Assembly (NCBI RefSeq): GCF_000724545.1
Contig: NZ_JHBV01000022.1
Coordinates: 1-64,000, forward strand
DNA length: 64,000 nucleotides
From: Aureispira sp. CCB-QB1
Lineage (GTDB): Bacteria > Bacteroidota > Bacteroidia > Chitinophagales > Saprospiraceae
Reading direction: 5' to 3'
Shown here: in pieces, positions 3,621-47,418 of the stretch
Position numbering within the stretch: position 1 is the first letter of the stretch
Layout: every line of letters begins with the position of its first letter
Translations under genes and position numbers: made by a program
The notes under the pieces: model-generated
What the model was told of the DNA's origin: nothing
Databases searched by the model: none
What the model saw: the letters and a program-made list of their open reading frames with translations, nothing else

Positions 3621-6600
3621 ATGTTTCTTCGTTTAATCTTCCTTTTATTTTGCAGTTGTCTTTATCTCGTATCTTTTGCCCAGCCTAGCAATGACGATTG
3701 TCACAATGCGACTCCTTTACCTATTAGTAGCAATTGGTGTTCTCCAGTTGCCGCTTACACCAATGTAGGAGCAACAGCATCCAATTTTCCTACTTCCCCG
3801 TGTTTTAGTAATAATAATGGAGATGTTTGGTTTAGTTTTGTAGCGGTAGGAACTGATATCAATATTACCGTAAACGGGAGTCAAGCACCAACACCAGGAG
3901 GCACACTATTGCGTCCTCAAATTGCTCTTTATACAGGCACTTGTACGAGTAGTGGTGGCACCTTATCACACTTGCAATGTCAAAATGCTTCTGCTGGAAA
4001 TAACATTGTCGACTTGTACAAAGGGGCATTGGTCATTGGGCAAACTTACTTTTTGCGTATAAAAGGAAACTTGGGTAGTACTGGAACATTCCAGATTTGT
4101 GCTCAAAACTATAATGGTCCTGCCCTACCAGGCTCTGATTGTAATTCTGCATCTGTTCTTTGTGATAAATCTTCCTTTGTTGTTCAAAGCGTTGTAGGAG
4201 CTGGCTTAGATCCTGATGAAGCATCCAATAGTTGTCTGGGAGGTTTAGGAGGAAATTCTGAATCCAATTCTACTTGGTTTAAGTGGACCTGTGACCAAAG
4301 TGGCTCTCTGACATTTACGTTGACTCCTAATAATGCCTCTGATGATTTGGATTTTGTTCTTTACGAACTGCCCAATGGAATTAACAACTGTGTAGGAAAA
4401 ACGGTACTTCGCTGTATGGCTGCTGGTGAGGCTGTTGCCAACTACCCCACCCCTTGTCATGGTCCTACAGGACTAAGAGCCACTTCAAACGACACCAATG
4501 AACAACCTGGTTGCTCGCAAGGACAAGACAATTGGCTATCTCCTGCCAATTTAGTGGCAGGAAGGAGTTATGCCTTACTGATTAATAATTTCACCTCCAC
4601 AGGCAATGGTTTTCAAATGGATTTTGGTGGAACAGCAACCTTTCAGGGACCTACTGCTGATTTTAATATCTCTGCTCCTAGTACAAATTGTGCTAGTGAG
4701 ACATGGACCTTTACAGATAATTCTAGTTTTGCCTTTGGAAATATTGCCAATTGGTCTTGGACATTTGGAACTGGTGCAAGCCCTGCAACTGCCAATACAC
4801 AAGGTCCTCATAACGTGACCTATAATACTCCAGGTCAAAAATCGGCTGTTTTATCTGTAGAAACGACAGAGGGCTGTCTAGTGACACATGTTGTTTTGTT
4901 AAATGTCGATTCATGCTGCCAAACAGTCAATGCTTTACAATATACCACCGCCACTACAGATGTTTTGTGTCGAGATAATCCAGATGGTGTAGCAACTATT
5001 ACTCCAACTACCACCCACCTAACGCCTTATTCTTACAGTTGGTCTACTGGTAATACAGGAAATACAATCAATAATTTGTTAGTTGGAAACTATATGGTTA
5101 GTATTTCGAATGGTATTTGTACAGCAGAAGAAACACTGATCATTGGAGGACCACCGCCTTGGGAATTGACAGATAGCATCGTTCGTCCTACCTGTGATGG
5201 AGGAACAGATGGTGCCATTTTAGTACTTAATAGCAATGGGTCAAATGGTGCTCCCTATCTTTATAATTGGGATAATACAGGATTTAGCACCAATACATCT
5301 TATAATAACCTATCAAACGGAACGTACAATTTGACACTTCAAGATAATCAAGGTTGTGATACCATAATTAGTTATCAAGTTCAAGAATTGGTTTTACAAT
5401 TAGATCCTGTTGCGTCAGGGATTGTTCATCCAAGTTGCTTTGGTTATGCTGATGGTAGTATCCAAGTAGTGGCACAAAACGGCTTAGCCCCTTATTCTTA
5501 TATTTGGAATCATAATGCTACAGGAGCACAATTAAATAACCTGCCTGAGGGTACCTATACCTTAGATACCGTATGGGATGCCAATCGCTGTAGGACATGG
5601 GCACCTGTCAATTTTACGCTAACCGCACCTGATTCACTTCAAATTGTACTCGATAGTGTAGAAGTTAGTTGTACGGGAAATCCCAATGGTGCTTTAATTC
5701 CTATTGTATCAGGGGGTACCTATGCTTATCAGTATCAATGGTCAACCTTCCAGTCGGATTCTATTGCCACCAATTTAAGAGCGGGCAACTATCAACTCAC
5801 TGTAACAGATGCTAATGGCTGTACTAAAACCATCCAAACTAGTTTGACGGAACCACCTATTCTTCGAGTCAACTACGATGTTCAAGATGTTAGTTGCTTT
5901 GGATACTCTGACGGACGTATTCGTATTATTGGACAGGGCGGTCGTCCTGGATATACCTATTCTATGGATGGCATCAACTTTAGTTCGGTTGATAGCTTTG
6001 CGGTTCCTGCTGGAACTACGTACAAATTATACCTACAAGATGCTGCTGGCTGTAGAACTGAATATAGTCCTGTTGTTGTCCAAGAACCCGATTTATTAGT
6101 TGTTGATGCTGGACGAGATACTACCATTGAATTGGGTGCCACCTTAGACATAGAAGCAAAACTTAGTTTTTTTGATTATTATACCTATGATTGGTCTGTT
6201 AATACAGGAGACATAACTTGTCCTTCTTGTCGTAAAACAACCATACAACCAGTCGATGATCGTAAGTATTATAGTGTTTTAGTAACAACACAAGCGGGAT
6301 GTATTGCTAGGGATTCTTTTTTAGTGGTTGTTGAAAAAGATCGAGATTTATTTATCCCCAATGCATTTTCTCCTAATAATGATGGGCAGAACGACATCCA
6401 TGATGTTTACAGTGGCAATGATGTGGCAATGATCAAACGTTATTTGATTTTTGATCGATGGGGGGATTTAGTTTGTAACAAAGAAAATATCCCTAGTCAT
6501 TGGAAAAATTTTGGATGGGACGGCACTTTTAGAGGTCAAAAGTTGCAAACAGGAGTTTATGTTTATATGGTTGAGGTAGAGTTTATTGATGGCGCCGTTA

Positions 6601-6635
6601 TTCGATATTCTGGCGACTTAACGTTATTCCGATAA
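3621..6635 (+). CDS. SprB-repeat, PKD-containing T9SS type B cell-surface protein
   Basis: Large exported protein, probably a surface adhesin. The ATG at 3621 starts a clean signal peptide (M-F-L-R-L-I-F-L-L-F...S-F-A-Q), giving 1004 residues; an in-frame GTG at 3513 would add 36 residues before it. Residues ~25-330 hold two beta-sandwich units, each opening with a D-C-x-x-A motif. Residues ~343-438 form a PKD-like domain with W-x-W-x-F-G. About 450-811 are five SprB repeats, each beginning and ending with Cys and containing P-Y-x-Y-x-W and G-x-Y-x-L. From ~910 to the end is CHU_C (I-P-N-A-F-S-P-N-N-D-G-x-N-D, then W-D-G-T-F-R-G and G-D-L-T-L-F-R), the type B T9SS signal. SprB repeats occur in gliding adhesins of this phylum. 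The exact ligand is unknown. Confidence 0.88.
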   Translation: MFLRLIFLLFCSCLYLVSFAQPSNDDCHNATPLPISSNWCSPVAAYTNVGATASNFPTSPCFSNNNGDVWFSFVAVGTDINITVNGSQAPTPGGTLLRPQIALYTGTCTSSGGTLSHLQCQNASAGNNIVDLYKGALVIGQTYFLRIKGNLGSTGTFQICAQNYNGPALPGSDCNSASVLCDKSSFVVQSVVGAGLDPDEASNSCLGGLGGNSESNSTWFKWTCDQSGSLTFTLTPNNASDDLDFVLYELPNGINNCVGKTVLRCMAAGEAVANYPTPCHGPTGLRATSNDTNEQPGCSQGQDNWLSPANLVAGRSYALLINNFTSTGNGFQMDFGGTATFQGPTADFNISAPSTNCASETWTFTDNSSFAFGNIANWSWTFGTGASPATANTQGPHNVTYNTPGQKSAVLSVETTEGCLVTHVVLLNVDSCCQTVNALQYTTATTDVLCRDNPDGVATITPTTTHLTPYSYSWSTGNTGNTINNLLVGNYMVSISNGICTAEETLIIGGPPPWELTDSIVRPTCDGGTDGAILVLNSNGSNGAPYLYNWDNTGFSTNTSYNNLSNGTYNLTLQDNQGCDTIISYQVQELVLQLDPVASGIVHPSCFGYADGSIQVVAQNGLAPYSYIWNHNATGAQLNNLPEGTYTLDTVWDANRCRTWAPVNFTLTAPDSLQIVLDSVEVSCTGNPNGALIPIVSGGTYAYQYQWSTFQSDSIATNLRAGNYQLTVTDANGCTKTIQTSLTEPPILRVNYDVQDVSCFGYSDGRIRIIGQGGRPGYTYSMDGINFSSVDSFAVPAGTTYKLYLQDAAGCRTEYSPVVVQEPDLLVVDAGRDTTIELGATLDIEAKLSFFDYYTYDWSVNTGDITCPSCRKTTIQPVDDRKYYSVLVTTQAGCIARDSFLVVVEKDRDLFIPNAFSPNNDGQNDIHDVYSGNDVAMIKRYLIFDRWGDLVCNKENIPSHWKNFGWDGTFRGQKLQTGVYVYMVEVEFIDGAVIRYSGDLTLFR

Positions 6636-6666
6636 TTCATTCTCTTTTTTAAATGCTTATTCTAAT

Positions 6667-7383
6667 CTATTCTTTCATTGCAATAGGAGTTCCTTTAATC
6701 CAATGGTTCATCAATTCAATGTTATCCAATAAGTTTCCAACAACGAATAACTTTGATTTTCCTAACACAATGGATTCATTCCAAAGTTCTTTACGGACTT
6801 GTTTATTACCAGAATAACTAGCATGTACAAAGTAAAGGTTGTTTTTAGTATTCCACAAATAGCCAACATGTGTGTCTAATCCTACGATATAAATACCGCT
6901 AGGTTGTGTATCCAAATAAGCCTTTAGTTTGTTTAATTGATTAAATGCTTGAATACTTTTCTTCGGACATAGGGTTCTGATAATGATAGAAGCAGCTTGC
7001 TGAGCTAATTTTACTCGTGGTAGTGTAAAACCACAATGTTCAAGTGTTGTGGTTACAAAATAGCCGCAAGCAATTTTACCTTTTCGGGGCTTCTCTGTTG
7101 TACCGTTAAAATCCCAAGTTGTACCATACCAATAAGAAAAAACGCTATCTGTTAAAGTAGTATACAAATAGTTTTTAGCCATTTTTTGAAGCGTTGGTAG
7201 ACGTTGTGGGTGAGATTTCCATTCTTTTTCAAAATCTAGCCGCCTCTTATGAATCGTATGTTTAGCATTGCCATAAGCCAATAAATGTGCTTCAATATCA
7301 AAACTTTTATAAGCTACATATTCCTTTATGGCAATACAAATAGTAATGCTAATGATTGTTGTCCATATCAGTATTCGATTCAT
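6667..7383 (-). CDS. Membrane-anchored NlpC/P60-like cysteine hydrolase (tentative)
   Basis: 238 residues from the ATG at 7383, which follows the upstream stop by one base (TAAcATG), so the two genes are translationally coupled; an earlier in-frame ATG at 7410 lies inside the upstream gene. A hydrophobic N-terminal segment (M-N-R-I-L-I-W-T-T-I-I-S-I-T-I-C-I-A-I) looks like a signal anchor. The body has a Cys motif K-I-A-C-G-Y-F-V-T-T, then D-T-H-V-G-Y-L with His, then F-V-H-A-S. This order and spacing resemble the Cys/His/polar triad of papain-like NlpC/P60 peptidases, which cut peptidoglycan peptides. I do not recognise a named family, so the function is inferred from motif order and the envelope context with the CapA-like partner. 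Confidence 0.5.
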   Translation of the reverse strand: MNRILIWTTIISITICIAIKEYVAYKSFDIEAHLLAYGNAKHTIHKRRLDFEKEWKSHPQRLPTLQKMAKNYLYTTLTDSVFSYWYGTTWDFNGTTEKPRKGKIACGYFVTTTLEHCGFTLPRVKLAQQAASIIIRTLCPKKSIQAFNQLNKLKAYLDTQPSGIYIVGLDTHVGYLWNTKNNLYFVHASYSGNKQVRKELWNESIVLGKSKLFVVGNLLDNIELMNHWIKGTPIAMKE

Positions 7384-7384
7384 G

Positions 7385-8698
7385 TTATTGAATTGTTTTT
7401 GGCGTTGCATCTACTTTTTTCAAAGACTTTATAGAGCCCAAATCTTTTAGAGCAACCTTGCGTTCTTTACTCTGCCATTTGCCTAAGTGGGTACGCATGC
7501 GCTTAGCTACAGATCGCATCGCTTGTACTTGACTTGTTGTTATATCAAAGTAGACTTGAGGACTATCTTCAAATGCTGTCACAGGCAATACTGCATACGT
7601 CCAGTCAAAGCCTTCTCTTAAATCCATATTATAACGTCCTTGTATATAGCGCCAAGCTAAAATATAATCATGCGCTCCAATTGTAGTTTGGTTTGTTTGG
7701 CTATTTTTTACTAATTCTAATTCAAAGATAAGACCAATATCCGTATTTGTTCGGTATTGATTAGAGATAAAATTTCCTAAAGAGTAGGTAACCAATACTT
7801 CTCGAAAAGTAGAAGAATCTTCTTGCCAAATAGTATCTGTCTTAATTGGTTGTATGACATGAGGATGCGCCCCAATAACAACATCTACCCCATTTTCCCA
7901 CAAAAACTGCGTATATTCAACTTGACTTCTATGTTCGTTTAATTTGTATTCTTTTCCCCAATGCATAATGGCAATAATCATATCAGGTTTTGCCGCTTTG
8001 GCTTGTACAATATCCTTATAAATTTGATTTTGCTCGATCATATTGACAATACAAGGCTCTTTGGTTTTAAGCCCATTCGTTGCATAAGTATAATTAATAA
8101 AAGCCAAGCGAAAAGTTGTTCCATCCACTTTTTTCTCTACAATTAAAGGATAAAGAGAGTCTCGCTCTGCTTGGTTTTTGAAGGTTCCTGTATGTTTGAT
8201 TCCTAGAGAATCTAAAACATCTATGGTATGTGTTAAACCGTATTTAAATCCATCGTTGGAATGATTGTTACAAGTTGTCAACAAATCGAAACCTGCATCT
8301 TTTAAGTACGCAGCTAAGATATCTGGCGACCGAAACATTGGATACCCCGTATAACGCCCTTTGTTGCTCAAAGTAAGTTCCAAGTTTCCAATCATCAAGT
8401 CTGCTTCCTCAAAAATAGGTTTAACATACCTAAAACAAGTTTCATAATCAAAATCACTCATATCCCTACTCTTCATCTTAGAAGGCTCGCCAACTGCCGC
8501 ACGAATTTGGTTGTCGTGTCCCATGATATCTCCCACAAAAGTCAACTTTATCCGATGCAAACTATCTACTAACAATACTTCTTTGGTTGAAGTGTCGATT
8601 GGTTGGTTAGCTAAATTTGTAATAGTAGTTGGAGTATCCACATTCGTACACGATAGTGTACAACTTGCCAGTAGAATTAGATAAGAGGTAATTTTCAT
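7385..8698 (-). CDS. CapA/PgsA-family metallophosphatase-like lipoprotein
   Basis: 437 residues with an N-terminal lipoprotein-type signal (lipobox Cys13 or Cys17). The body carries the PGA_cap motifs in order: F-V-G-D-I-M-G-H-D, I-G-N-L-E-L-T-L-S, T-C-N-N-H-S-N-D, M-H-W-G-K-E-Y, V-I-G-A-H-P-H-V-I-Q-P and S-L-G-N-F-I-S-N-Q. The Asp, Asn and His residues of a calcineurin-like metal site are thus present. Family members take part in poly-gamma-glutamate capsule synthesis, but in most Bacteroidota no capsule genes sit nearby, and none do here. It is coupled to the downstream cysteine-hydrolase-like gene, which suggests a shared envelope task. Confidence 0.8.
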   Translation of the reverse strand: MKITSYLILLASCTLSCTNVDTPTTITNLANQPIDTSTKEVLLVDSLHRIKLTFVGDIMGHDNQIRAAVGEPSKMKSRDMSDFDYETCFRYVKPIFEEADLMIGNLELTLSNKGRYTGYPMFRSPDILAAYLKDAGFDLLTTCNNHSNDGFKYGLTHTIDVLDSLGIKHTGTFKNQAERDSLYPLIVEKKVDGTTFRLAFINYTYATNGLKTKEPCIVNMIEQNQIYKDIVQAKAAKPDMIIAIMHWGKEYKLNEHRSQVEYTQFLWENGVDVVIGAHPHVIQPIKTDTIWQEDSSTFREVLVTYSLGNFISNQYRTNTDIGLIFELELVKNSQTNQTTIGAHDYILAWRYIQGRYNMDLREGFDWTYAVLPVTAFEDSPQVYFDITTSQVQAMRSVAKRMRTHLGKWQSKERKVALKDLGSIKSLKKVDATPKTIQ

Positions 8699-9017
8699 AG
8701 TTATTTTATTAAGCAGCTGCCATTAATCATAATTCAATCATACTACTAATACAACAATTCTCAATCAAAAATATTTGGATAAAATACAAAAACATCTGCA
8801 CAGTTCTATCTAAAACAACATAACATTCTAACTTACAAGCATCAACACCTTATAAGTCCATATAAAAAACACCTTGCAAGCAAGACAAAAGTAATTCCTG
8901 TTTTTCAAGAAAAACACTTCCTTTTCTATTTTTTTTGTAAATTCGCAAAGCTTCTGTTTTGAAGCTAATTTTAAACGATAGAAATCCCTCCACTAACATA
9001 AATATATAATTAAGACT
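8699..9017. other. Intergenic region between divergent capA-like gene and biotin carboxylase gene
   Basis: 319 bases, A+T-rich, no convincing ORF, hairpin or repeat. TAAATTCG at about 8938 is a weak match to the TAnnTTTG promoter element and could serve the rightward gene, but no matching upstream element was found. Confidence 0.5.
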
Positions 9018-10502
9018 ATGAAAAAAATACTGGTTGCTAATAGAGGAGAAATTGCCATGCGTGTTATGCGTACTTGCCGTGAAATGGGCATCAAAACGGT
9101 AGCTGTTTATTCCGAAGCTGATAGAAATGCTCCCCATGTTCGCTATGCTGATGAAGCCGTTTGTTTGGGTCCTCCTGCCTCCAACCAGTCTTATTTATTG
9201 GGAGAAAAAATTATTGCTGTTGCCAAAGAGCTAGGGGTTGAAGGCATTCATCCAGGGTATGGCTTTTTGAGCGAAAATGCTACTTTTGCCAAACAAGTTA
9301 CAGATGCTGGTATTACTTTTATTGGTCCCAAACCTCATGCTATTGAGATGATGGGAAGTAAATTAGCTGCGAAAGAAGCTGCGAAGGCAAATGACATTCC
9401 ATTGGTTCCTGGTACAGAAGAAGCCATCGAAGATCCTGAACTAGCAAAAAAAATTGCCCTAGAAATTGGCTTTCCTATTCTAATCAAAGCTTCTGCTGGT
9501 GGTGGTGGAAAAGGAATGCGCGTCGTTGAAAAGGTTGAAGAACTAGACGAGCAAATGGAACGTGCGATCTCTGAAGCGCAATCTGCATTTGGCGATGGTT
9601 CTGTTTTTATTGAAAAATACGTGACCTCTCCTCGACATATCGAAATACAAGTATTGGCCGATACACATGGCAATGTCATTCATTTGTTTGAGCGAGAGTG
9701 CTCCATTCAACGCCGTCATCAAAAAGTTGTAGAAGAAGCTCCTTCTATCGTTTTAACACCCGAATTAAGAGATGCGATGGGTGCTTGTGCCGTACGAGTA
9801 GCTCAATTGTGTGATTATGTTGGTGCTGGAACTGTAGAATTTTTATTAGAAAATAATAAGACGTTCTACTTCTTAGAAATGAATACACGTTTGCAAGTAG
9901 AACATCCTGTAACGGAATTAATCTCAGGTGTTGATTTAGTTAAACAGCAAATTTTGATTGCAAGAGGCGAAAAGCTAAGTATTCAACAAGAAGATTTGAG
10001 TATACAAGGTCATGCCCTCGAACTTCGTGTTTATGCAGAAGATCCTGTTAATAACTTCTTGCCAAGTATTGGAAACTTAAGCACTTACAAAATTCCTAAA
10101 GGAACAGGCGTACGTGTCGATGATGGTTTTGAAGAAGGAATGGATATTCCTATTTATTACGACCCGATGATTTCCAAATTGATCACCTACGGCAAAGATC
10201 GTCAAGAAGCTATCCAAAGAATGCTGCGCGCCATTGAAGAATATCATATTGACGGCTGCGAAACAACACTACCATTTGGAACCTATGTACTGCAACACGA
10301 TGCTTTTGTTTCTGGTAATTTTGATACTAACTTTGTCAAAAAACACTTTGATCCCAATGCACTAGTCCAAGAGGATGATAAAGAGGCAGAATTGGCAGCT
10401 AAATTAGCAGCGTACTTGATGAATTCTAATAAACAACAAAGTACAGCAACAACAACACAAAACACTCAAAAATCTAAGTGGGCGGCTCGCAAATGGAGCT
10501 AA
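9018..10502 (+). CDS. accC: Biotin carboxylase subunit of an acyl-CoA carboxylase
   Basis: ATP-dependent carboxylation of biotin on a carrier protein, the first half-reaction of acetyl- or propionyl-CoA carboxylase. All ATP-grasp landmarks are present. The N-terminus is K-I-L-V-A-N-R-G-E-I-A-M-R, the glycine-rich loop K-A-S-A-G-G-G-G-K-G starts at Lys157, and the metal/ADP site E-M-N-T-R is followed by L-Q-V-E-H-P-V-T-E (Glu287 on). At 494 residues it is about 45 longer than classic AccC. The extra part is a polar tail rich in Gln and Thr ending W-A-A-R-K-W-S, with no biotinyl domain. The style of the N-terminus (V-Y-S-E-A-D-R-N-A-P-H-V) is closer to stand-alone acyl-CoA/propionyl-CoA carboxylase alpha subunits of this phylum, so accC is used loosely. 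No beta subunit lies nearby. Confidence 0.88.
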   Translation: MKKILVANRGEIAMRVMRTCREMGIKTVAVYSEADRNAPHVRYADEAVCLGPPASNQSYLLGEKIIAVAKELGVEGIHPGYGFLSENATFAKQVTDAGITFIGPKPHAIEMMGSKLAAKEAAKANDIPLVPGTEEAIEDPELAKKIALEIGFPILIKASAGGGGKGMRVVEKVEELDEQMERAISEAQSAFGDGSVFIEKYVTSPRHIEIQVLADTHGNVIHLFERECSIQRRHQKVVEEAPSIVLTPELRDAMGACAVRVAQLCDYVGAGTVEFLLENNKTFYFLEMNTRLQVEHPVTELISGVDLVKQQILIARGEKLSIQQEDLSIQGHALELRVYAEDPVNNFLPSIGNLSTYKIPKGTGVRVDDGFEEGMDIPIYYDPMISKLITYGKDRQEAIQRMLRAIEEYHIDGCETTLPFGTYVLQHDAFVSGNFDTNFVKKHFDPNALVQEDDKEAELAAKLAAYLMNSNKQQSTATTTQNTQKSKWAARKWS

Positions 10503-10586
10503 GTAACGATAAAAAATAATCTTTCAATTTGCCTAATCTTTTTGAAAACGTATTTTTTGAACGTCACTAACATCCCCTTTTACAAT

Positions 10587-10630
10587 ACTCCGTATATGCT
10601 TTTGCTATTGTAACAAAACATATACGGAGT
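10587..10630. terminator. Hairpin between convergent genes
   Basis: Perfect 12-bp inverted repeat ACTCCGTATATG (10587-10598) / CATATACGGAGT (10619-10630) with a 20-base loop, between the convergent biotin carboxylase and AraC-family genes. There is no T-run after either arm, so it may be an atypical bidirectional terminator or a REP-like element. ACTCCGT resembles the ends of the dispersed hairpin family. Confidence 0.55.
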
Positions 10631-10691
10631 TATCAATAATGCTCCGACAAGGCATCTACCAACTTATTGGGCTAATCATTGCAACGCACCT

Positions 10692-11522
10692 TTACAGCAT
10701 TTTCTTTATCTCAGAAGGATTTTTTCCAAAATACGTCTTAAATGAACGACTAAAGTGTGCCAAATCTTCAAATCCCACTTCCAAATAAACATCTGAAGGA
10801 GTCTTCTGGGTTTGGATTAACAAGCGCTTTGCCATTTCCAAACGTTGCTGCTTAATCCATTTGTGTGGAGATTGTTGGTAAATAGCCTTAAATTCTCTAT
10901 TAAACGTAGAAAGACTACGCCCTGCCATTCTAGCAAGTTTTTCGAGTGGTATGTTGTATATAAAATTGTGCTGCATAAAACTTTCTAAATCCGCTCGTTC
11001 AGGTCTTGTGTATTCTTTTAAAACAGTCAACAAATCAGGGCGTGATTGAGCAATAGCCATCAACGCTTCCATTGTTTTTAGCTCAACCATTTGACGATCT
11101 AATGTCAAATTGCCTTCTACATATGCCCATATTGAATCCATTAATCCTTTTAGCAACGTATTGTAGGGCAAATGAACAACACACTCTACACGTTCCAAAG
11201 TATTGCTTTGAACAGGTAAGTTTTGTATGACTTTTTGTAGAAATTCATCTTGCAAAACGAAAGCAATCATTCTAGCACAGGACTCCCCTTCGCCCCAAGT
11301 CTTAAAACACTGTCCATTAGTATACTTACGAATTAAAGCAAAAGAGCCTTTGGCAATAATATAAACTTCCTCATTCCGTTCCAAGGTCATTTGCCCTTCT
11401 TGCAAATAAATCAAGACATTGCTAGGATAATAAATTGTGTGCGGTTCTACTAGTAGTGCTTCTACTGATGCTGCAATTTGCATCTGTTCGCACTCGATTG
11501 TTTTCATTATTGTTTTTTCCAT
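10692..11522 (-). CDS. AraC-family transcriptional regulator
   Basis: 276 residues. The last ~100 carry the double helix-turn-helix of the AraC family: L-A-R-M-A-G-R-S-L-S-T-F-N-R-E-F-K, then P-H-K-W-I-K-Q-Q-R-L-E-M-A-K-R-L-L and V-G-F-E-D-L-A-H-F-S-R-S-F-K. The N-terminal ~170 residues look like a cupin-type ligand domain of the kind in ExsA/PchR-like regulators, without a recognisable ligand site. A second ATG lies five codons inside. The gene stands alone and its target cannot be read from the context. Confidence 0.88.
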   Translation of the reverse strand: MEKTIMKTIECEQMQIAASVEALLVEPHTIYYPSNVLIYLQEGQMTLERNEEVYIIAKGSFALIRKYTNGQCFKTWGEGESCARMIAFVLQDEFLQKVIQNLPVQSNTLERVECVVHLPYNTLLKGLMDSIWAYVEGNLTLDRQMVELKTMEALMAIAQSRPDLLTVLKEYTRPERADLESFMQHNFIYNIPLEKLARMAGRSLSTFNREFKAIYQQSPHKWIKQQRLEMAKRLLIQTQKTPSDVYLEVGFEDLAHFSRSFKTYFGKNPSEIKKML

Positions 11523-11986
11523 AGATTCAAATATAATTCATTTACAACCAACTTATTTGCCTTTACTTATCAAAATACTTGCTTTTTTCTGTCAAAAGAG
11601 TTTTAGCTTATTAATAGGAGGAAATAGCCTACTGATTACCTCTTAAAATCCATAGATAAATCTTACTTCTCATTACTCCGTTGAAAAATCGTATTAGTTT
11701 ACTTCGTGAGCGCTACGGGTTCGTAGGAAAACTAAAAAATCAACGGAGTATTAACTTCTATACTTGGCTTTTTAAATTAATGTCTCTATTTTAGTTACAC
11801 ATTGCATCCACTATACATTAATTTCCAACCTATTAAATCTTTTAATTTAATTTATTAATCTACTATATTGTTATGATTAAAAGCAGTACACAGCACACTG
11901 TCATTTGGTAACCTGCTGCTTATTCAACCGTCAATCTACAAAAGTTGGAAAGATTTTTATTCTTAAATAATTAAATAAACAGTACA
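11523..11986. other. Intergenic region with a dispersed hairpin
   Basis: 464 bases between divergent genes. The only clear structure is the hairpin at 11672-11753. The rest is A+T-rich without an ORF. Confidence 0.6.
11672..11753. repeat. Dispersed hairpin, family 1, short form
   Basis: Ends TACTCCGTTGA (from 11674) and TCAACGGAGTA (to 11750) are a perfect 11-bp inverted repeat. Inside are GTATTAGTTT and AAAACTAAAAAA arms and the central TTCGTGAGCGCTACGGGTTC. It is almost identical to the two ends of the longer copy at 25275-25438. Confidence 0.8.
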
Positions 11987-13474
11987 ATGAAAAAACAATT
12001 TCTATCGGTCTGTTTTGTGCTCCTTGCAACCATATCCTACGCACAAAACTACCAACTCATTCTACCGACCAACGAGCAGCACTTTTTATATGCTCACACT
12101 ACAGGAAGTCCCAATTATCATCAAGAAATTCGCTCTATACGAATTGACACTTCGGTCACTCAAGGAGCAGAAACATATTATTATAATCATAAAATATTAG
12201 AAGAAACTCCTACCAGCTCACTCTGCCTTGCAGATCATAACGACTCATCTTGGGTAGGTCATCAAATAATTGCCTCTAATAACGGGGATTATGTTTTTTT
12301 TAACAAGCAATTGGATAGTATTGTCATCAAAAGCTTAGCTCCTTTGAACGATACTTGGACTATATATAAATTTGGAAATGGAGACTATATAGAAGGGACT
12401 TTAGTTAGTATTGATACCGCCACGATATTAAACCATTTAGATAGTATCAAAACAATTCATTTGCAAGTAAAAGATGCAGCCAACAATATTATCGTTCATC
12501 CGATGAATACTAAAGTTTTGCAATTTTCTAAGCAAAATGGTTGGGTGCAATTTTTTGATTTCCATACCTTCCCTAATGATACCATTCCTTACCAGTTGGT
12601 AGGGAGTAGCGCCCAGCCTAATATTGGTATTAACAACCCAACCCACATCGACTTTTTTAATTTTAATGTTGGTGACGAAATTCATACTACTGGTGAGTAT
12701 CGTCCTCAAGCAACTCCTTGGATTTTTGGTAAGCACAAAACTATTCGTACCGTACTTAGCAAAACAGTGTCAACCAATCAAGATACCATTACCTATACGT
12801 ATGAAGATTGCATTGCAAGGATTGACAACGATGCAATGCAAGGAAAACAGGATACTACATTTTTAACAGATACTGTTGTACAAAGAGTTATTGTATCCAC
12901 TGATGTGAATAATTTGGGGCAACTTACCCATGAGCTTGCACCAGATTCTTCTGGTTTTAGTGTGACCTCTGTCAGAAATTTTGCAAGTCTCCGAAGACAA
13001 AAAGTTACTTTCAATTATTTTTATTATGATACGTTCAATAACTGCTGGACATTCTACTTTGACGTTTGGCCCCAAATTTGGATTGAGGGCATTGGCGGTC
13101 CTTTTGTGAATAGTCCTGCTCGAAAAAACATGCCTGTTTATTACAAAAAGGGCAATGAAACATGGGGCATTCCTGTTAACTGCTCGACGTTTCTAAATAT
13201 TCCTACGATTGCGAATGAAGAACAGACCATTCAAATCTTTCCAAATCCATTGACAGAAACTGCGACCCTCCAAATTAAAAACTTTGATGCGATGGACAAT
13301 TGGTCGTTGCGGCTGCTAGATGTAACAGGAAAAGTTGTCCGCTCTACTCCTATCCAAAAAGCAACACATCTATTGCACAAAGGAACGTTACCTTCTGGCG
13401 TCTATTTTTATCAACTTACGAATACGCAACAACAAAAACAATACACAGGGAAATTAATTCTACAAGATAATTAA
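11987..13474 (+). CDS. T9SS type A sorting-domain protein of unknown function
   Basis: 495 residues. A signal peptide (M-K-K-Q-F-L-S-V-C-F-V-L-L-A-T-I-S-Y-A-Q) is followed by a beta-rich region of ~390 residues that I do not recognise. The last ~80 residues form a Por_Secre_tail: I-F-P-N-P-L-T-E, then L-L-D-V-T-G-K-V-V, then L-P-S-G-V-Y-F-Y-Q-L and a final strand K-L-I-L-Q. That domain is cut off during type IX secretion. The protein is therefore expected at the cell surface or outside. It has its own terminator downstream and is probably a single-gene unit. Confidence 0.85.
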   Translation: MKKQFLSVCFVLLATISYAQNYQLILPTNEQHFLYAHTTGSPNYHQEIRSIRIDTSVTQGAETYYYNHKILEETPTSSLCLADHNDSSWVGHQIIASNNGDYVFFNKQLDSIVIKSLAPLNDTWTIYKFGNGDYIEGTLVSIDTATILNHLDSIKTIHLQVKDAANNIIVHPMNTKVLQFSKQNGWVQFFDFHTFPNDTIPYQLVGSSAQPNIGINNPTHIDFFNFNVGDEIHTTGEYRPQATPWIFGKHKTIRTVLSKTVSTNQDTITYTYEDCIARIDNDAMQGKQDTTFLTDTVVQRVIVSTDVNNLGQLTHELAPDSSGFSVTSVRNFASLRRQKVTFNYFYYDTFNNCWTFYFDVWPQIWIEGIGGPFVNSPARKNMPVYYKKGNETWGIPVNCSTFLNIPTIANEEQTIQIFPNPLTETATLQIKNFDAMDNWSLRLLDVTGKVVRSTPIQKATHLLHKGTLPSGVYFYQLTNTQQQKQYTGKLILQDN

Positions 13475-42523: not shown

Positions 42524-43621
42524 ATGAATCTGTTTTCTATTTTTAACGTATTACTACTCTCATTCTACACTTCTGCTCAATTATTTGCTTTTCAGACAAC
42601 GACAGAAAAATTATTAGCCAATCCCGACATTACTTGGGCTGGAGAAGTCTATGTTGATTATTTGCCCAATATTACTATTCAAGAACCTGTAGACGCACAA
42701 ATCAAAGAACTCTATGGAACATCGGAGTATAATGTTTTTGAAATTCTAAAAATACAAACTTCTCCCCTTGAAGACTGGCTACAACCTACCTCCCACTTAC
42801 TTTCAAATCATTTTCTGCAACTTACATCTAAGCATTTAAATGCATATGCTGATGCAAATTTAACTCAAAAATTAAGTCCTAAAGCTTACTCAAAAGCAGC
42901 AGCTTATCAAGTAGTTGATACTGTTTTGGCCTTTGATCCCGAAACATATGTAGAAATGGTCAAAATTGACACGAATGAGTTGCGTCCTCAAGAGGTACAA
43001 ACGTTCCGAGTAAAACAACTATTAACGTATAACGAAAGCCAAAATCAGCTACAAATTACTCCTATCGCTATTGCTCCTGTGGCAACAATTTATAATAAAA
43101 GCTCTCTTCGTAGAAACGTCCGCAAAGATGTTTTATTTTGGATGCCTGTAAAAGAAGCCTTTAAAGCATTAAACTTGGAAACAACAACGATTACTTGGGC
43201 AAAACGATTGAAAAAAGATGTTTCTTCCGAAACAATCAATACCATTAAAGGAACAGGTAGTATTGCTGATGTTTTTGATAAGATGGTCGCACATTATAAA
43301 ACACAACCTTCTTCAACTAAAATGTACGCCGCCAAAGAAAAACAACTAACTCTGCTTTCTCCTGATGCTGTCAAAAATTTTGGAGATGCTGTGGATACTG
43401 TTGTCACTTTTGATCCAAATACTTTTGAAGAGCGTATTGATGTTGTTCATCGAAATCTTCCCAAAAACTTCGCCACAAAAGTACGACTTATTCAAGATTG
43501 GTACTGGAATGCCCAAACACAGGAGATGCAAATTCGTACACTTGGTTTTGCCCCCATATCATCTCAAACTGATGCCAAAACTAAACATGCTCCCATGTAT
43601 TATATAAAAACAAAAGAATAA
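42524..43621 (+). CDS. GldN-like protein with two GldN domains, copy A
   Basis: 365 residues with a signal peptide (to ~Ala22). Two tandem GldN-type units are seen, of about 187 residues each. Each starts with I-T-W-A (36-39 and 223-226), matching the D-I-M-W-S start of GldN. Each then has a short helical part, a D-T-V-x-x-F-D-P-x-T-x-E block, R-V-K-Q-L-L-T-Y-N or R-L-I-Q-D-W-Y-W-N, and I-x-x-I-A-P or L-G-F-A-P before an aromatic end (L-F-W-M-P; M-Y-Y-I). Known GldN/PorN have one such unit and form the T9SS outer-membrane ring with GldK. No gldKLM genes are nearby. A T9SS accessory or assembly role is inferred, not shown. Confidence 0.6.
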   Translation: MNLFSIFNVLLLSFYTSAQLFAFQTTTEKLLANPDITWAGEVYVDYLPNITIQEPVDAQIKELYGTSEYNVFEILKIQTSPLEDWLQPTSHLLSNHFLQLTSKHLNAYADANLTQKLSPKAYSKAAAYQVVDTVLAFDPETYVEMVKIDTNELRPQEVQTFRVKQLLTYNESQNQLQITPIAIAPVATIYNKSSLRRNVRKDVLFWMPVKEAFKALNLETTTITWAKRLKKDVSSETINTIKGTGSIADVFDKMVAHYKTQPSSTKMYAAKEKQLTLLSPDAVKNFGDAVDTVVTFDPNTFEERIDVVHRNLPKNFATKVRLIQDWYWNAQTQEMQIRTLGFAPISSQTDAKTKHAPMYYIKTKE

Positions 43622-43905: not shown

Positions 43906-44994
43906 ATGAAAACCTATCTTAAATTTACTTTTGCCCTAGTACTAAGCACTTTTTACTGCTTCCCATCTTCCGCACTTCACCCTACCAATAATATACTAGA
44001 CAACTCAGATATCACATGGGCAGCAGAGGTATACACAGATTATACGCCCAACGTCAATTACTTTGCCTTAGGCAGAAAAAAGATGCAAAAACAATACGGC
44101 ATTTCTAGAAGCACCTTTAGTACATTAAAAATCCAGCAAGCCTCTAGTGATCACATCAACTTAGACGACCTTACCTTGGCTCGAAAAATACTAAATATGT
44201 CAAACAATTCTAGTTCTTTGTTTAAAGATGCCTCTTTAAGTACTCCTTTGAGTTATGCTGATTATCTCAAAATCACCCAAGAAACAACCTACGATACCAC
44301 CTTTGTATCTCAGCCCGAAGGAACAAAAACAATGCAAATTATTGCTAATAAGATCAACATTAATGAAATTCAACTATTTAGAGTAAAGCAAATTTTACAT
44401 TATAACGAAAAAACCAATGAACTAGGTCTCACTCCAATTGCTATTGCTCCCATTTTGAGTTCTTACGACAAAGAGGGCAAACTGATTGGTACAACTCCCC
44501 TATTTTGGATGTCTGTGCAGGCTATTGCAGAACAACTAGATTTAAACGCCGCTACAATCAATTGGGCAAAACGATTAACACGCTCTATAGATACCGATGA
44601 AGTGACGGTCATAAAAGGGAATCATAGTTTTGCAACTATATTAAACAAAATTCTATATCGTTATACTCAAACACCTAATACATCTAAGCTTTATCATACT
44701 TATGGAAAAATGACTCCTATGAGCCCGCAAGAAATAAAAAAACTCAATAGTGGCCTCGATACGCTAATTACTTTTGATCCCGTCACATTTGAAGAAAAGG
44801 TATCGGTTATTAACAATACTCCTACTCCTGAAACCATGCATACAATTCGCATTGTTCAAGATTGGATTTGGAATGAAGACACCCAAAACATCAGCATTCG
44901 ACTCGTTGCCTTTGCGCCTCTTTTAAAACGTTACGACAACCACAAAAACTTCCTACATTCTGGTCCCATGTTTTATAAAAAACCTAATGAATAA
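43906..44994 (+). CDS. GldN-like protein with two GldN domains, copy B
   Basis: 362 residues, paralogue of the preceding GldN-like gene. A signal peptide (...F-P-S-S-A) is followed by the same two-unit layout. I-T-W-A (36-39) opens unit 1 and I-N-W-A (218-221) opens unit 2. Unit 1 has F-R-V-K-Q-I-L-H-Y-N and P-I-A-I-A-P-I. Unit 2 has D-T-L-I-T-F-D-P-V-T-F-E-E-K, R-I-V-Q-D-W-I-W-N and L-V-A-F-A-P-L. The F-D-P-x-T block of unit 1 is replaced by V-S-Q-P-E-G-T, so unit 1 has drifted in this copy. The gene copies are diverged, so the duplication is not recent. Function as for copy A. Confidence 0.6.
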   Translation: MKTYLKFTFALVLSTFYCFPSSALHPTNNILDNSDITWAAEVYTDYTPNVNYFALGRKKMQKQYGISRSTFSTLKIQQASSDHINLDDLTLARKILNMSNNSSSLFKDASLSTPLSYADYLKITQETTYDTTFVSQPEGTKTMQIIANKININEIQLFRVKQILHYNEKTNELGLTPIAIAPILSSYDKEGKLIGTTPLFWMSVQAIAEQLDLNAATINWAKRLTRSIDTDEVTVIKGNHSFATILNKILYRYTQTPNTSKLYHTYGKMTPMSPQEIKKLNSGLDTLITFDPVTFEEKVSVINNTPTPETMHTIRIVQDWIWNEDTQNISIRLVAFAPLLKRYDNHKNFLHSGPMFYKKPNE

Positions 44995-45079: not shown

Positions 45080-45258
45080 AAAAAAAATATTCTTGAGAAG
45101 CAGCATTCAATTCACAAAGTTCGTTTTGTAGACAAAGATTCTTATATTTATATGTGGAGACTTAAAAATATTTTTTGAATTAAAACAGATAGTAATACGT
45201 TAAACATTCTACACTACCTAAAATATTATTTGAACTCCTAAGAATAAATTATCCAAAT

Positions 45259-45846
45259 ATGGCAATTGCTTTGAATATTTCAACGACAGAACATACCGCA
45301 AAAGACGTTCAGTCTAGCTCTAATGAAGCTAAACTGATTGCAGGTTGTTTAGCAGAAGAACGTTGGGCGCAAAAACAACTTTACGAACAACATTATGGAA
45401 AAATGATGGGAATTTGTTTGCGCTACTCTAATAACTCCGAAGATGCTAAAGACATTCTTAACGAAGGTTTTATTAAAGTTTTTCGTTATCTGCAACGCTA
45501 CAAAATCGGTACATCCTTAGAAGGTTGGATTCGAAGGATTATGATTAATACCTCGATTGATTTTTATAGAAAAGCAATTCGTCATAGAACAGAAGACATA
45601 GAATACGCATCCAATACAACAGCAACAGGTGAAGATGCTATTAGTAAATACTCTGCTAAAGAAATTCTTTCCGTTATTCAAACATTGCCTCCTTCTTATC
45701 GTGCTGTGTTTAACCTTTATGCCATAGAGGGTTATTCTCATCGTGAAGTAGCGAATCAATTGGGAATTTCTGAAAGTACTTCAAGGTCCAATTTGGTAAA
45801 AGCTCGCGCAAAATTGAAAGTTTTACTAACAGAACTTTACAAATAA
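45259..45846 (+). CDS. ECF-type RNA polymerase sigma factor
   Basis: 195 residues with regions 2 and 4 only. Region 2 is A-Q-K-Q-L-Y-E-Q-H-Y-G-K-M-M-G-I-C-L-R-Y, then D-I-L-N-E-G-F-I-K-V-F. Region 4 is L-P-P-S-Y-R-A-V-F-N-L-Y-A-I-E-G-Y-S-H-R-E-V-A, then G-I-S-E-S-T-S-R-S-N-L-V-K-A-R. This is the extracytoplasmic-function group. The gene is 12 bases before a probable membrane-spanning anti-sigma partner, so the two form an operon and the sigma factor is probably held inactive by it. Confidence 0.93.
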   Translation: MAIALNISTTEHTAKDVQSSSNEAKLIAGCLAEERWAQKQLYEQHYGKMMGICLRYSNNSEDAKDILNEGFIKVFRYLQRYKIGTSLEGWIRRIMINTSIDFYRKAIRHRTEDIEYASNTTATGEDAISKYSAKEILSVIQTLPPSYRAVFNLYAIEGYSHREVANQLGISESTSRSNLVKARAKLKVLLTELYK

Positions 45847-45858
45847 CAAAGATATAGA

Positions 45859-47418
45859 ATGAAAAATAAAGATTTTGATAACATAGACAAACTTGCTCAG
45901 GAAGCCTTCGAGAACTTCGAGGTAGAGTTTGACCCAATGGACTGGGCAGATCTACAAAACAAACTGCGTACAGAGTCATCTATAGACCAAGTTGCTAAGG
46001 ACGCATTAGAAGATTACGAGGTTCCTTTTGACAAAAACGATTGGATAAGGCTAGAGAAACAGCTGGATAAAGAACGAGATTTGCTACCACATATTTGGTG
46101 GCTAAAAAGTACAGAAGTTGGCGTTATGGCCTTGTTACTCTTTACCCTGTTCAATTTAAATTCAAACCAAACACCACATACTCATTCAAACCAAAACTAT
46201 GATCAAACAACTACACTAACTCCTTCTGCTGATTTGGATAACGCTACTACTAACAAAGACCAAAATAGTACGTTCCAAATGCCAGAAAAAGATGCATCAA
46301 CTCTATCTAACGATATTAATGCCCCACAGGCATTTCATGAGTCTGCCACTACCACGGTGGGGAAAGCATCTAGTGATAATTTTAGTGATAATAGTTCTAA
46401 TAACAATCCTAGTTTTGATACACCTTCATTGGCTGCCACAAAAACAAAAGAATCCAATCTATCTCGTGCAACCAATGTAGTTACTGATGACAATCAAACA
46501 TCTTCAGTTGTGACAACAGCATCTAACAGCAACGAGGTACCGAATCAGACCAACAACAACGGTTCTACTGGTGAAGATGGTACAGCTAATACGCTAAATG
46601 CAACAACTGATCATGATGTTACTAATAAATTAACAGGGATAGAAAATACGACTAAAAGAAATGAAACAGAAAAAGAAACTAATCGTAGTCGATTTTCTAT
46701 CCTACAAATTCCAACCCTTGATGTCAAGGATGGTATCAAAACAACAGATCCTATTTTTGAACTAAAGAAAGCAAAATTGGAGTTGCCATTCAAAGGTAAG
46801 AGCTATATCGGCGCTGTTGCTCGTATTGGTTCTAATTTTGCCACTAGCATGGGTGGAACGAGTGTTGGATATGGAGCTGGGTTAACATTTACGAATGAAC
46901 TTTCTCGTAAATTTGCTCTCAAAACAGGTGCTATGGTTGCTTATAATAAGTATGATGTCAATGAAGTATTATTAATCGACAACAAGCTTATTGATGGTCG
47001 TGTTTATGAAATTGATCAGTCCAAAACAAGTCACCTAGTTATTTTAGAAGTTCCAGTAGATATCCAGTATACTTTCTTCCAAAGTGAAAAATGGAAAATC
47101 TATGCGACAGCAGGTATCGTTGCGAATGTTATTAGTAGCAGAACTTATACAGGTTCTCAAACTTCAAACGCTAATGGCATTAGTTTAAAAGAAGATCTTA
47201 ATTCTAACAATTTTGATAGAGGTGCCTTTGAAGGTGGTTTAATAAATCAAAATGCCTTTTTATCTGTTGGAGGTGGCTTGGGCTTGGAGCGTCAATTAGG
47301 AGATAAAATTAGTTTGTACATTCTTCCGTCTTATCGACATGCTGTGACACCTTCTGGAGCAAACAAAGATTACATTAGTTCTTTTAGTGTTAATATCGGA
47401 ATAAAAACAGCTTTGTAA
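45859..47418 (+). CDS. Putative dual membrane-spanning anti-sigma factor with outer-membrane beta-barrel
   Basis: 519 residues with an unusual layout. Residues 10-36 and 43-69 are two copies, 33 apart, of a motif A-x-x-A-x-E-x-F/Y-E-V-x-F-D-x-x-D-W-x-x-L. One membrane helix follows (~85-101, G-V-M-A-L-L-L-F-T-L-F-N-L). About 200 residues are then rich in Asn, Thr, Ser and Gln with no predictable fold. From ~312 to the end a beta barrel (S-Y-I-G-A-V-A-R-I-G-S-N-F ... I-L-P-S-Y-R-H-A-V) resembles the outer-membrane barrel family of this phylum. There is no cleaved signal. The same order (cytoplasmic domain, one helix, long linker, barrel), encoded next to an ECF sigma factor, defines the Dma proteins of Bacteroides thetaiotaomicron. 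An anti-sigma role is inferred from this and from gene order. Confidence 0.75.
   Translation: MKNKDFDNIDKLAQEAFENFEVEFDPMDWADLQNKLRTESSIDQVAKDALEDYEVPFDKNDWIRLEKQLDKERDLLPHIWWLKSTEVGVMALLLFTLFNLNSNQTPHTHSNQNYDQTTTLTPSADLDNATTNKDQNSTFQMPEKDASTLSNDINAPQAFHESATTTVGKASSDNFSDNSSNNNPSFDTPSLAATKTKESNLSRATNVVTDDNQTSSVVTTASNSNEVPNQTNNNGSTGEDGTANTLNATTDHDVTNKLTGIENTTKRNETEKETNRSRFSILQIPTLDVKDGIKTTDPIFELKKAKLELPFKGKSYIGAVARIGSNFATSMGGTSVGYGAGLTFTNELSRKFALKTGAMVAYNKYDVNEVLLIDNKLIDGRVYEIDQSKTSHLVILEVPVDIQYTFFQSEKWKIYATAGIVANVISSRTYTGSQTSNANGISLKEDLNSNNFDRGAFEGGLINQNAFLSVGGGLGLERQLGDKISLYILPSYRHAVTPSGANKDYISSFSVNIGIKTAL

Follow-up and report, generated by a model that had tools for sequence, protein, structure and literature searches.

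The question raised by this locus is whether an ECF sigma factor of Aureispira sp. CCB-QB1 is governed by a single polypeptide that reaches from the cytoplasm to the outer membrane, and which genes such a pair would control. An arrangement of this kind is described for Bacteroides thetaiotaomicron, in which Dma1/Das1 and Dma2/Das2 combine a cytoplasmic N-terminus, one helix, a disordered tether and a C-terminal barrel; according to the same account, loss of Dma2 raises vesiculation, a phenotype that needs its sigma gene (PMC13088901). The genus Aureispira is placed in the class Saprospiria by the NCBI taxonomy. The window, i.e., the whole stretch of DNA analysed, comprises 64,000 nucleotides, and a sequence-only reading of it had proposed that a Dma-type system is encoded here.

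The ECF sigma factor gene (45259..45846, plus strand, 195 aa) matches Sigma70_r2 (E 1.4e-14) and Sigma70_r4_2 (E 4.1e-16), both above cut-off, and scores 93.9 bits with TIGR02985, below the cut-off of 126.4. After 12 nt it is followed on the same strand by a 519-aa open reading frame (45859..47418, plus strand), and both the positions of these frames and the gap between them were given exactly by the sequence-only reading. We assign the second gene to a Dma-type anti-sigma factor from its domain order and its constant sigma neighbour. Its counterpart in an uncultured Aureispira MAG (L002) is 72% identical in the best segment, with a match spanning residues 1-519, and that locus carries the same genus label in the genome search (G006/L003). 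Sigma region 4 (PF08281) has 37 matches in the genome, so other sigma factors exist in this bacterium.

The 519-aa protein was claimed to run from a cytoplasmic segment through one helix and a tether into a barrel, and this order is borne out by sequence and model, with a helix that is weakly hydrophobic. Residues 82-100 (46102..46158, plus strand) form the single hydrophobic peak, whose Kyte-Doolittle mean of 1.42 over 19 residues is weak for a membrane helix by itself; across the family the value ranges from 1.29 to 2.62 and is below 1.6 in 17/104 proteins. Within this region K83 and E86 are nearly invariant. Helix and N-terminus were called by hydropathy only, and a 15-residue window rule detected a hydrophobic N-terminus in 0/104 family proteins, in keeping with the proposed lack of a cleavable N-terminal signal. 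The Thr/Asn/Ser-rich segment at residues 105-290 (46171..46728, plus strand) is the putative periplasmic tether; it contains no hydrophobic segment, and S, T, N, Q, D, E, K, G and P make up 74% of it, disorder being judged from this composition alone. Across the family the length of the tether ranges from roughly 104 to 255 residues, and a second hydrophobic stretch occurs inside the linker in 6/104 proteins.

Residues 315-518 (46801..47412, plus strand) are predicted to form an 8-stranded outer-membrane beta-barrel. PF13568 (OMP_b-brl_2) matches residues 332-450 (E 1e-6, 29.5 bits, cut-off 27), and an AlphaFold2 model of residues 290-519, built from an alignment of 68 rows (67 belong to the family and one to a different family in the same order), reached a pLDDT of 93.1 and a pTM of 0.83 with eight long strands and one short strand. 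Foldseek matches in the PDB were led, in order, by OmpA, Ail, a Legionella porin and NspA, and OmpX and OmpW were also matched; TM-scores reached 0.69 when normalized by target length but did not exceed 0.48 by query length, at an rmsd near 9 A. The number of strands and these matches point to a closed barrel. The two outcomes that the sequence-only reading had itself set against its claim, a C-terminus without a barrel and a cleaved N-terminal signal, did not turn up, and with helix, tether and barrel all predicted and the sigma neighbour in place, the Dma-type reading is supported.

The pair is widely kept. A search with the single sequence gave a match in 34 of 60 relatives, and a 28-row profile matched 118/120 genomes of the family (E 1e-6) and 69/296 genomes across the phylum (E 1e-4), 14 of the latter belonging to the same phylum and not to the same class. 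For counting we used 104 family proteins. Those shorter than 360 aa were left out, as were duplicates with the same last 200 residues and, apart from L001, paralogues in the own genome and further copies from the same species. A sigma frame lies directly upstream of all 104 distinct proteins; the 104th is L012, whose sigma gene, read at the contig start (L327), overlaps by 20 nt. The same holds for 24/24 relatives outside the family (25 loci, with L099 excluded as too short). The two genes overlap in 76/103 pairs and overlap or lie no more than 20 nt apart in 98/103, overlaps that may be overstated because the first start codon of each frame was used. Conservation of the pair is far beyond chance, and the pair is near-universal in Saprospiraceae. 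A 458-aa sigma frame at L157 was considered as a fusion and rejected by eye, as the frame reads on upstream.

The genome of CCB-QB1 contains three more pairs of the same order with a PF13568 match, on contigs C23 (L081), C16 (L083) and C2 (L082). On C2 (positions 6000-12000), the ECF sigma gene is followed by the gene of a barrel-like protein, whose signal peptide was recognized by eye, and then by that of a 541-aa protein with a helix, a linker and the PF13568 match. Contig C12 (L058) encodes, from position 1667 onward, a candidate sigma-linked protein in which three modules precede a hydrophobic segment; by eye, these are of another type (LW.NIe..L).

The cytoplasmic part of the 519-aa protein revealed a feature that the sequence-only reading had missed, namely that its N-terminal ~80 residues consist of two tandem copies of one module. 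The module is ~33 aa long with a Trp in its centre and follows roughly the pattern FD..I..KL..lE.py....W..me..LD. Module 1 covers residues 4-40 with W29 (45868..45978, plus strand, 39.9 bits with the module profile) and module 2 residues 38-73 with W62 (45970..46077, plus strand, 46.6 bits); W62 is invariant in the 28-row family alignment. The profile was made from 62 segments and run back on the proteins with a threshold of more than 3 bits. By this count one family protein has no copy, 10 have one, 54 two, 29 three, seven four, two five and one nine copies; if the higher of the two counts, by profile or by Trp, is used for each protein, 10 have one, 54 two, 29 three, eight four, two five and one ten, so that 94/104 carry at least two. 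Outside the family the profile finds one copy in 21/24 proteins and none in three, and adding the Trp count gives one copy in 23/24 and none in one. Real N-termini contain 263 module segments of at least 8 bits, against 0.1 expected from shuffled sequences; the pattern is not due to chance, but it was not found blindly either, since the profile was built partly from the same set.

Module matches beyond the membrane helix were absent from the 136 proteins scanned, and in the proteins scanned for domains the module itself brought no Pfam or NCBIfam model above its cut-off. Among two-module proteins, mean identity between proteins is 0.27 for first against first, 0.26 for last against last and 0.23 for first against last modules, and inside one protein first and last modules are on average 0.28 identical; most duplications thus look old. 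The largest array, in L194 (G433:C115, 849-3320), has ten modules before the helix. A joint fold of the sigma factor with the N-terminus of its partner had a pTM of 0.41 and gave no reliable docked pose; pLDDT was 51-63 in module 1 and higher, at 70-87, over module 2 and on into the helix. The modules appear in this model as helices with loops between them, module 1 as a helix-loop-helix at low confidence; there is no break between the second helix of module 1 and module 2, nor between the second helix of module 2 and the membrane helix. Each module is probably composed of two helices, as far as this model goes.

After upstream regions shorter than 120 nt had been left out, 97/104 family regions were kept, and among these GCAGCA and CGTTTT are two of the five most enriched hexamers. 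With a spacing of 15 to 17, the combined motif GCAGCA-N15..17-CGTTTT is found within two mismatches in 73/97 regions, with three mismatches in 11 and with four in 13, whereas base-shuffled regions give 2.2 expected within two mismatches. Spacing is the better control, because the motif was derived from the same regions: it is 16 in 67/73 motif-bearing regions, and when single spacings from 10 to 23 were tried at no more than one mismatch, there were 49 matches at 16 and 0 to 5 at the others. At this locus the predicted autoregulatory promoter GCAGCA-N16-CGTTTT (45100..45127, plus strand) is exact and is the sole site without mismatch in the window. Autoregulation of the sigma operon is well supported by these sequence comparisons, and we infer that the sigma factor of this locus reads RGCAGCA-N16-CGTT.

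The paralogue pairs of the own genome do not share the motif: the best sites have three mismatches on C12 (L058), three on C23 (L081) and four on C16 (L083), and on C2 (L082) two, in a site at the outer limit of the 300 nt upstream. Among sigma genes from outside the family, 3/24 have the motif within two mismatches at a spacing of 16 or 17, which we treated as chance. At no more than one mismatch the own genome has 76 sites against 20 for the reversed motif, an excess that was set aside since it consists partly of a repeated TCAGCAAGTTG... sequence. This genome has, on many contigs, more than ten copies of a repeat that reads TCAGCAAGTTG..CTTT.TTGCGTTTT or similar.

The strict form RGCAGCA-N16-CGTT was then used for predicting further targets. 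Nine Aureispira genomes yielded 80 listed sites, of which 65 distinct ones were read, identical copies and unfetched sites being left out. Inside genes, where strict sites probably occur by chance, lie 41/65, and 24 are intergenic; a gene follows within 400 nt in 21 of the 24, namely four sigma genes and 17 others. By a crude rule a signal peptide is present in 17/17 of these other genes against 52/138 controls, orthologues of different species being counted separately. Among their products are PorZ (309 bits, NCBIfam cut-off 260), PorV2 (449 bits, NCBIfam cut-off 325), two cargo proteins with a T9SS type A sorting domain, and a protein that resembles PorU2 at its start, where 70 residues score 34 bits and thus stay far short of the cut-off set for the whole protein.

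As a second test, nine other genomes of the family were searched with the same strict form, setting aside three sites before a sigma gene. This gave 60 sites, 41 inside genes and 19 intergenic, 14 of the latter with a gene, and a signal peptide is present in 13/14 target genes against 26/113 controls; the sole exception encodes a polysaccharide deacetylase. The 14 include four SusC/RagA receptors recognized by their signature model, a T9SS cargo protein, a subtilase, an M43 protease, a weak OMP_b-brl match and a BamA-like gene; the last is truncated and scores 252.6 bits, whereas the cut-off of 297 applies to the complete protein. The enrichment in signal peptides persists against site-free genes whose intergenic DNA is 100 nt or longer, both in the genus (16/18 versus 33/68, p 0.0016) and in the other family genomes (11/12 versus 26/54, p 0.005). 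Sites are fewer than in the reversed control in 4/23 genomes (G022, 21 versus 27; G013, 7 versus 8; G030, 4 versus 6; G023, 4 versus 5).

Individual targets could be followed across species. For a small secreted protein with a CxxC motif, a site within two mismatches precedes the gene in 7/7 loci tested from six species (out of nine loci, with L290 and L291 left out), and three of these seven had escaped the strict search; by sequence it is a good candidate target. In the own genome this protein lies on contig C17 (L266, 1747-2145) and has no Pfam or NCBIfam match. The PorV2 site is found within two mismatches in 5/8 Aureispira, 0/10 other genomes of the family and 1/7 genomes from other families, one of 11 family loci and four of 11 from other families having been left out as unparsed, and a PKD protein keeps its motif site in 4/7 loci from three species. 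The predicted targets differ between genera, and the links of the predicted regulon to type IX secretion and to BamA and SusC are suggestive.

The sequence-only reading had further argued from the neighbours of the pair that secretion or the state of the outer membrane may be the signal. Two tandem GldN-like genes (42524-43621 and 43906-44994) do lie upstream, and both belong to PF19841, so the description of the neighbours stands. As an argument about the signal they are weak: a GldN-like gene is directly upstream of the sigma gene in 5/8 Aureispira species (CCB-QB1, L002, L004, L005 and L006), is absent by Pfam from L007, L008 and L009, and no motif within two mismatches precedes either of the two genes here. 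Outside the genus the upstream frames vary from locus to locus. The GldN-like genes are outside the conserved unit, and the proposed involvement of outer-membrane or secretion state finds its support in the predicted regulon instead.

Taken together, these observations are best explained by an anti-sigma factor tethered to the outer membrane whose tandem modules hold the sigma factor and whose release of it switches on its own operon and envelope genes, an account that we consider probable. The protein would be anchored by one uncleaved inner-membrane helix, its disordered tether would cross the periplasm, and its OmpA-like barrel would presumably be inserted in the outer membrane. By analogy with the Dma proteins, the two cytoplasmic tandem modules may hold the ECF sigma factor at the inner membrane, and the barrel would report on the outer membrane. 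A disturbed outer membrane, or disturbed insertion of the barrel, could serve as the trigger, and the change might run along the tether or lead to cleavage so that the sigma factor is freed. Free sigma factor would then act at RGCAGCA-N16-CGTT sites to switch on transcription of its own operon and of a small envelope set of outer-membrane, secretion and surface proteins.

This account has to be weighed against others. An ordinary outer-membrane protein with an incidental sigma neighbour might be argued for from PF13568, which covers plain barrels too and has 19 matches in the genome, three of those read (L084, L085 and L086) starting with an apparent normal signal peptide; yet the protein studied here lacks such a peptide, has an internal helix after 80 residues and belongs to a family in which every counted member follows a sigma gene, which makes this reading highly improbable. 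A closer relative of the favoured account accepts the sigma/anti-sigma couple as real and regards the barrel as a mere anchor or substrate, the protein being cut in the periplasm or the membrane so that no intact dual-membrane form exists. The long unstructured linker would be accessible to proteases, and the proteobacterial sigma-E pathway runs by cleavage of RseA; against this, the N-terminal modules and the barrel stay in one chain across the family and the tether keeps to the length range given above throughout. We regard this as unlikely, and it differs from the favoured account in the steady state only, since a protein cleaved upon a signal would still be a dual-membrane sensor.

It is quite conceivable, if somewhat short of an even chance, that only the last, membrane-near module binds the sigma factor and that the others bind other sigma factors or something else: in two-module proteins a distinct consensus (EvPy...HW) marks the last copy, with W62 invariant, upstream modules differ from it, and the many PF08281 matches attest to other sigma factors in the genome. 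Against it speaks that the copies are of one pattern and confined to the cytoplasmic side, and that nine of the ten copies in L194 share one pattern by eye. The bolder idea, that each module clamps one sigma factor and the tethered sensor thus stores from two sigma factors here to ten in L194, is doubtful in our view. Were it true, such a multivalent store would allow graded or all-at-once release, and a tandem-duplicated clamp of ~33 aa would drive a sigma-E-like outer-membrane response in a whole bacterial family.

Within the tethered anti-sigma account, the Dma architecture is already known, and the tandem variable array and the motif go beyond the sequence-only reading. Varying copy number provides natural variants for the effect of anti-sigma valency on a stress response, and with the conserved motif the genes under an outer-membrane-tethered sigma system can be predicted in Saprospiraceae. 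According to a published survey, only 6% of ECF genes in Bacteroidetes have a class I anti-sigma domain nearby, versus 32% in all phyla, and anti-sigma factors of other classes are suggested as possibly dominant in Bacteroidetes (PMC7406223). A short class would fit there, because a two-helix CnrY type exists and class I is rare in this group (PMC7406223). The module described here is a candidate for such a further class, and it can be searched for and tested as an 80-residue peptide. A literature search, with most subscription papers outside its scope, turned up neither a tandem module array of variable length nor RGCAGCA-N16-CGTT, nor any work on Dma-type or ECF sigma/anti-sigma systems of Saprospiraceae; parts may be in print.

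In Escherichia coli, the sigma-E/RseA system places an ECF sigma factor under the control of outer-membrane state, with bamA in its regulon; RseA lacks a barrel, its anti-sigma domain belongs to class I, and outer-membrane faults are sensed via DegS and RseP. The system proposed here resembles it as an outer-membrane-linked ECF sigma system, and a BamA-like gene is among the predicted targets. SigP of Porphyromonas gingivalis is an ECF sigma factor tied to type IX secretion that binds the porT, porV, porP and ruvA promoters and acts with PorX/PorY; the term anti-sigma is absent from the main text of that report, and the motif proposed for SigP differs from RGCAGCA-N16-CGTT (PMC4800418). CnrY, which acts on CnrH, has a class II anti-sigma domain of two helices only, which lie on sigma regions 4 and 2, respectively, and as described it is neither repeated nor barrel-bearing, unlike the array predicted here (PMC7406223). 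The closest comparison is with B. thetaiotaomicron, judged by the published description. As with Dma1/Das1 and Dma2/Das2, the sigma gene adjoins that of a barrel-ended anti-sigma factor; Dma3 is also a barrel-ended anti-sigma factor of the Dma family, but has its sigma factor as an N-terminal domain, whereas here it is a separate gene (PMC13088901). Unlike Dma1 and Dma2 as described, the protein studied here carries tandem cytoplasmic modules, whose copy number was compared within Saprospiraceae and relatives, and the pair has its own conserved motif, with predicted targets that are envelope genes and not NigD1 or PULs (PMC13088901).
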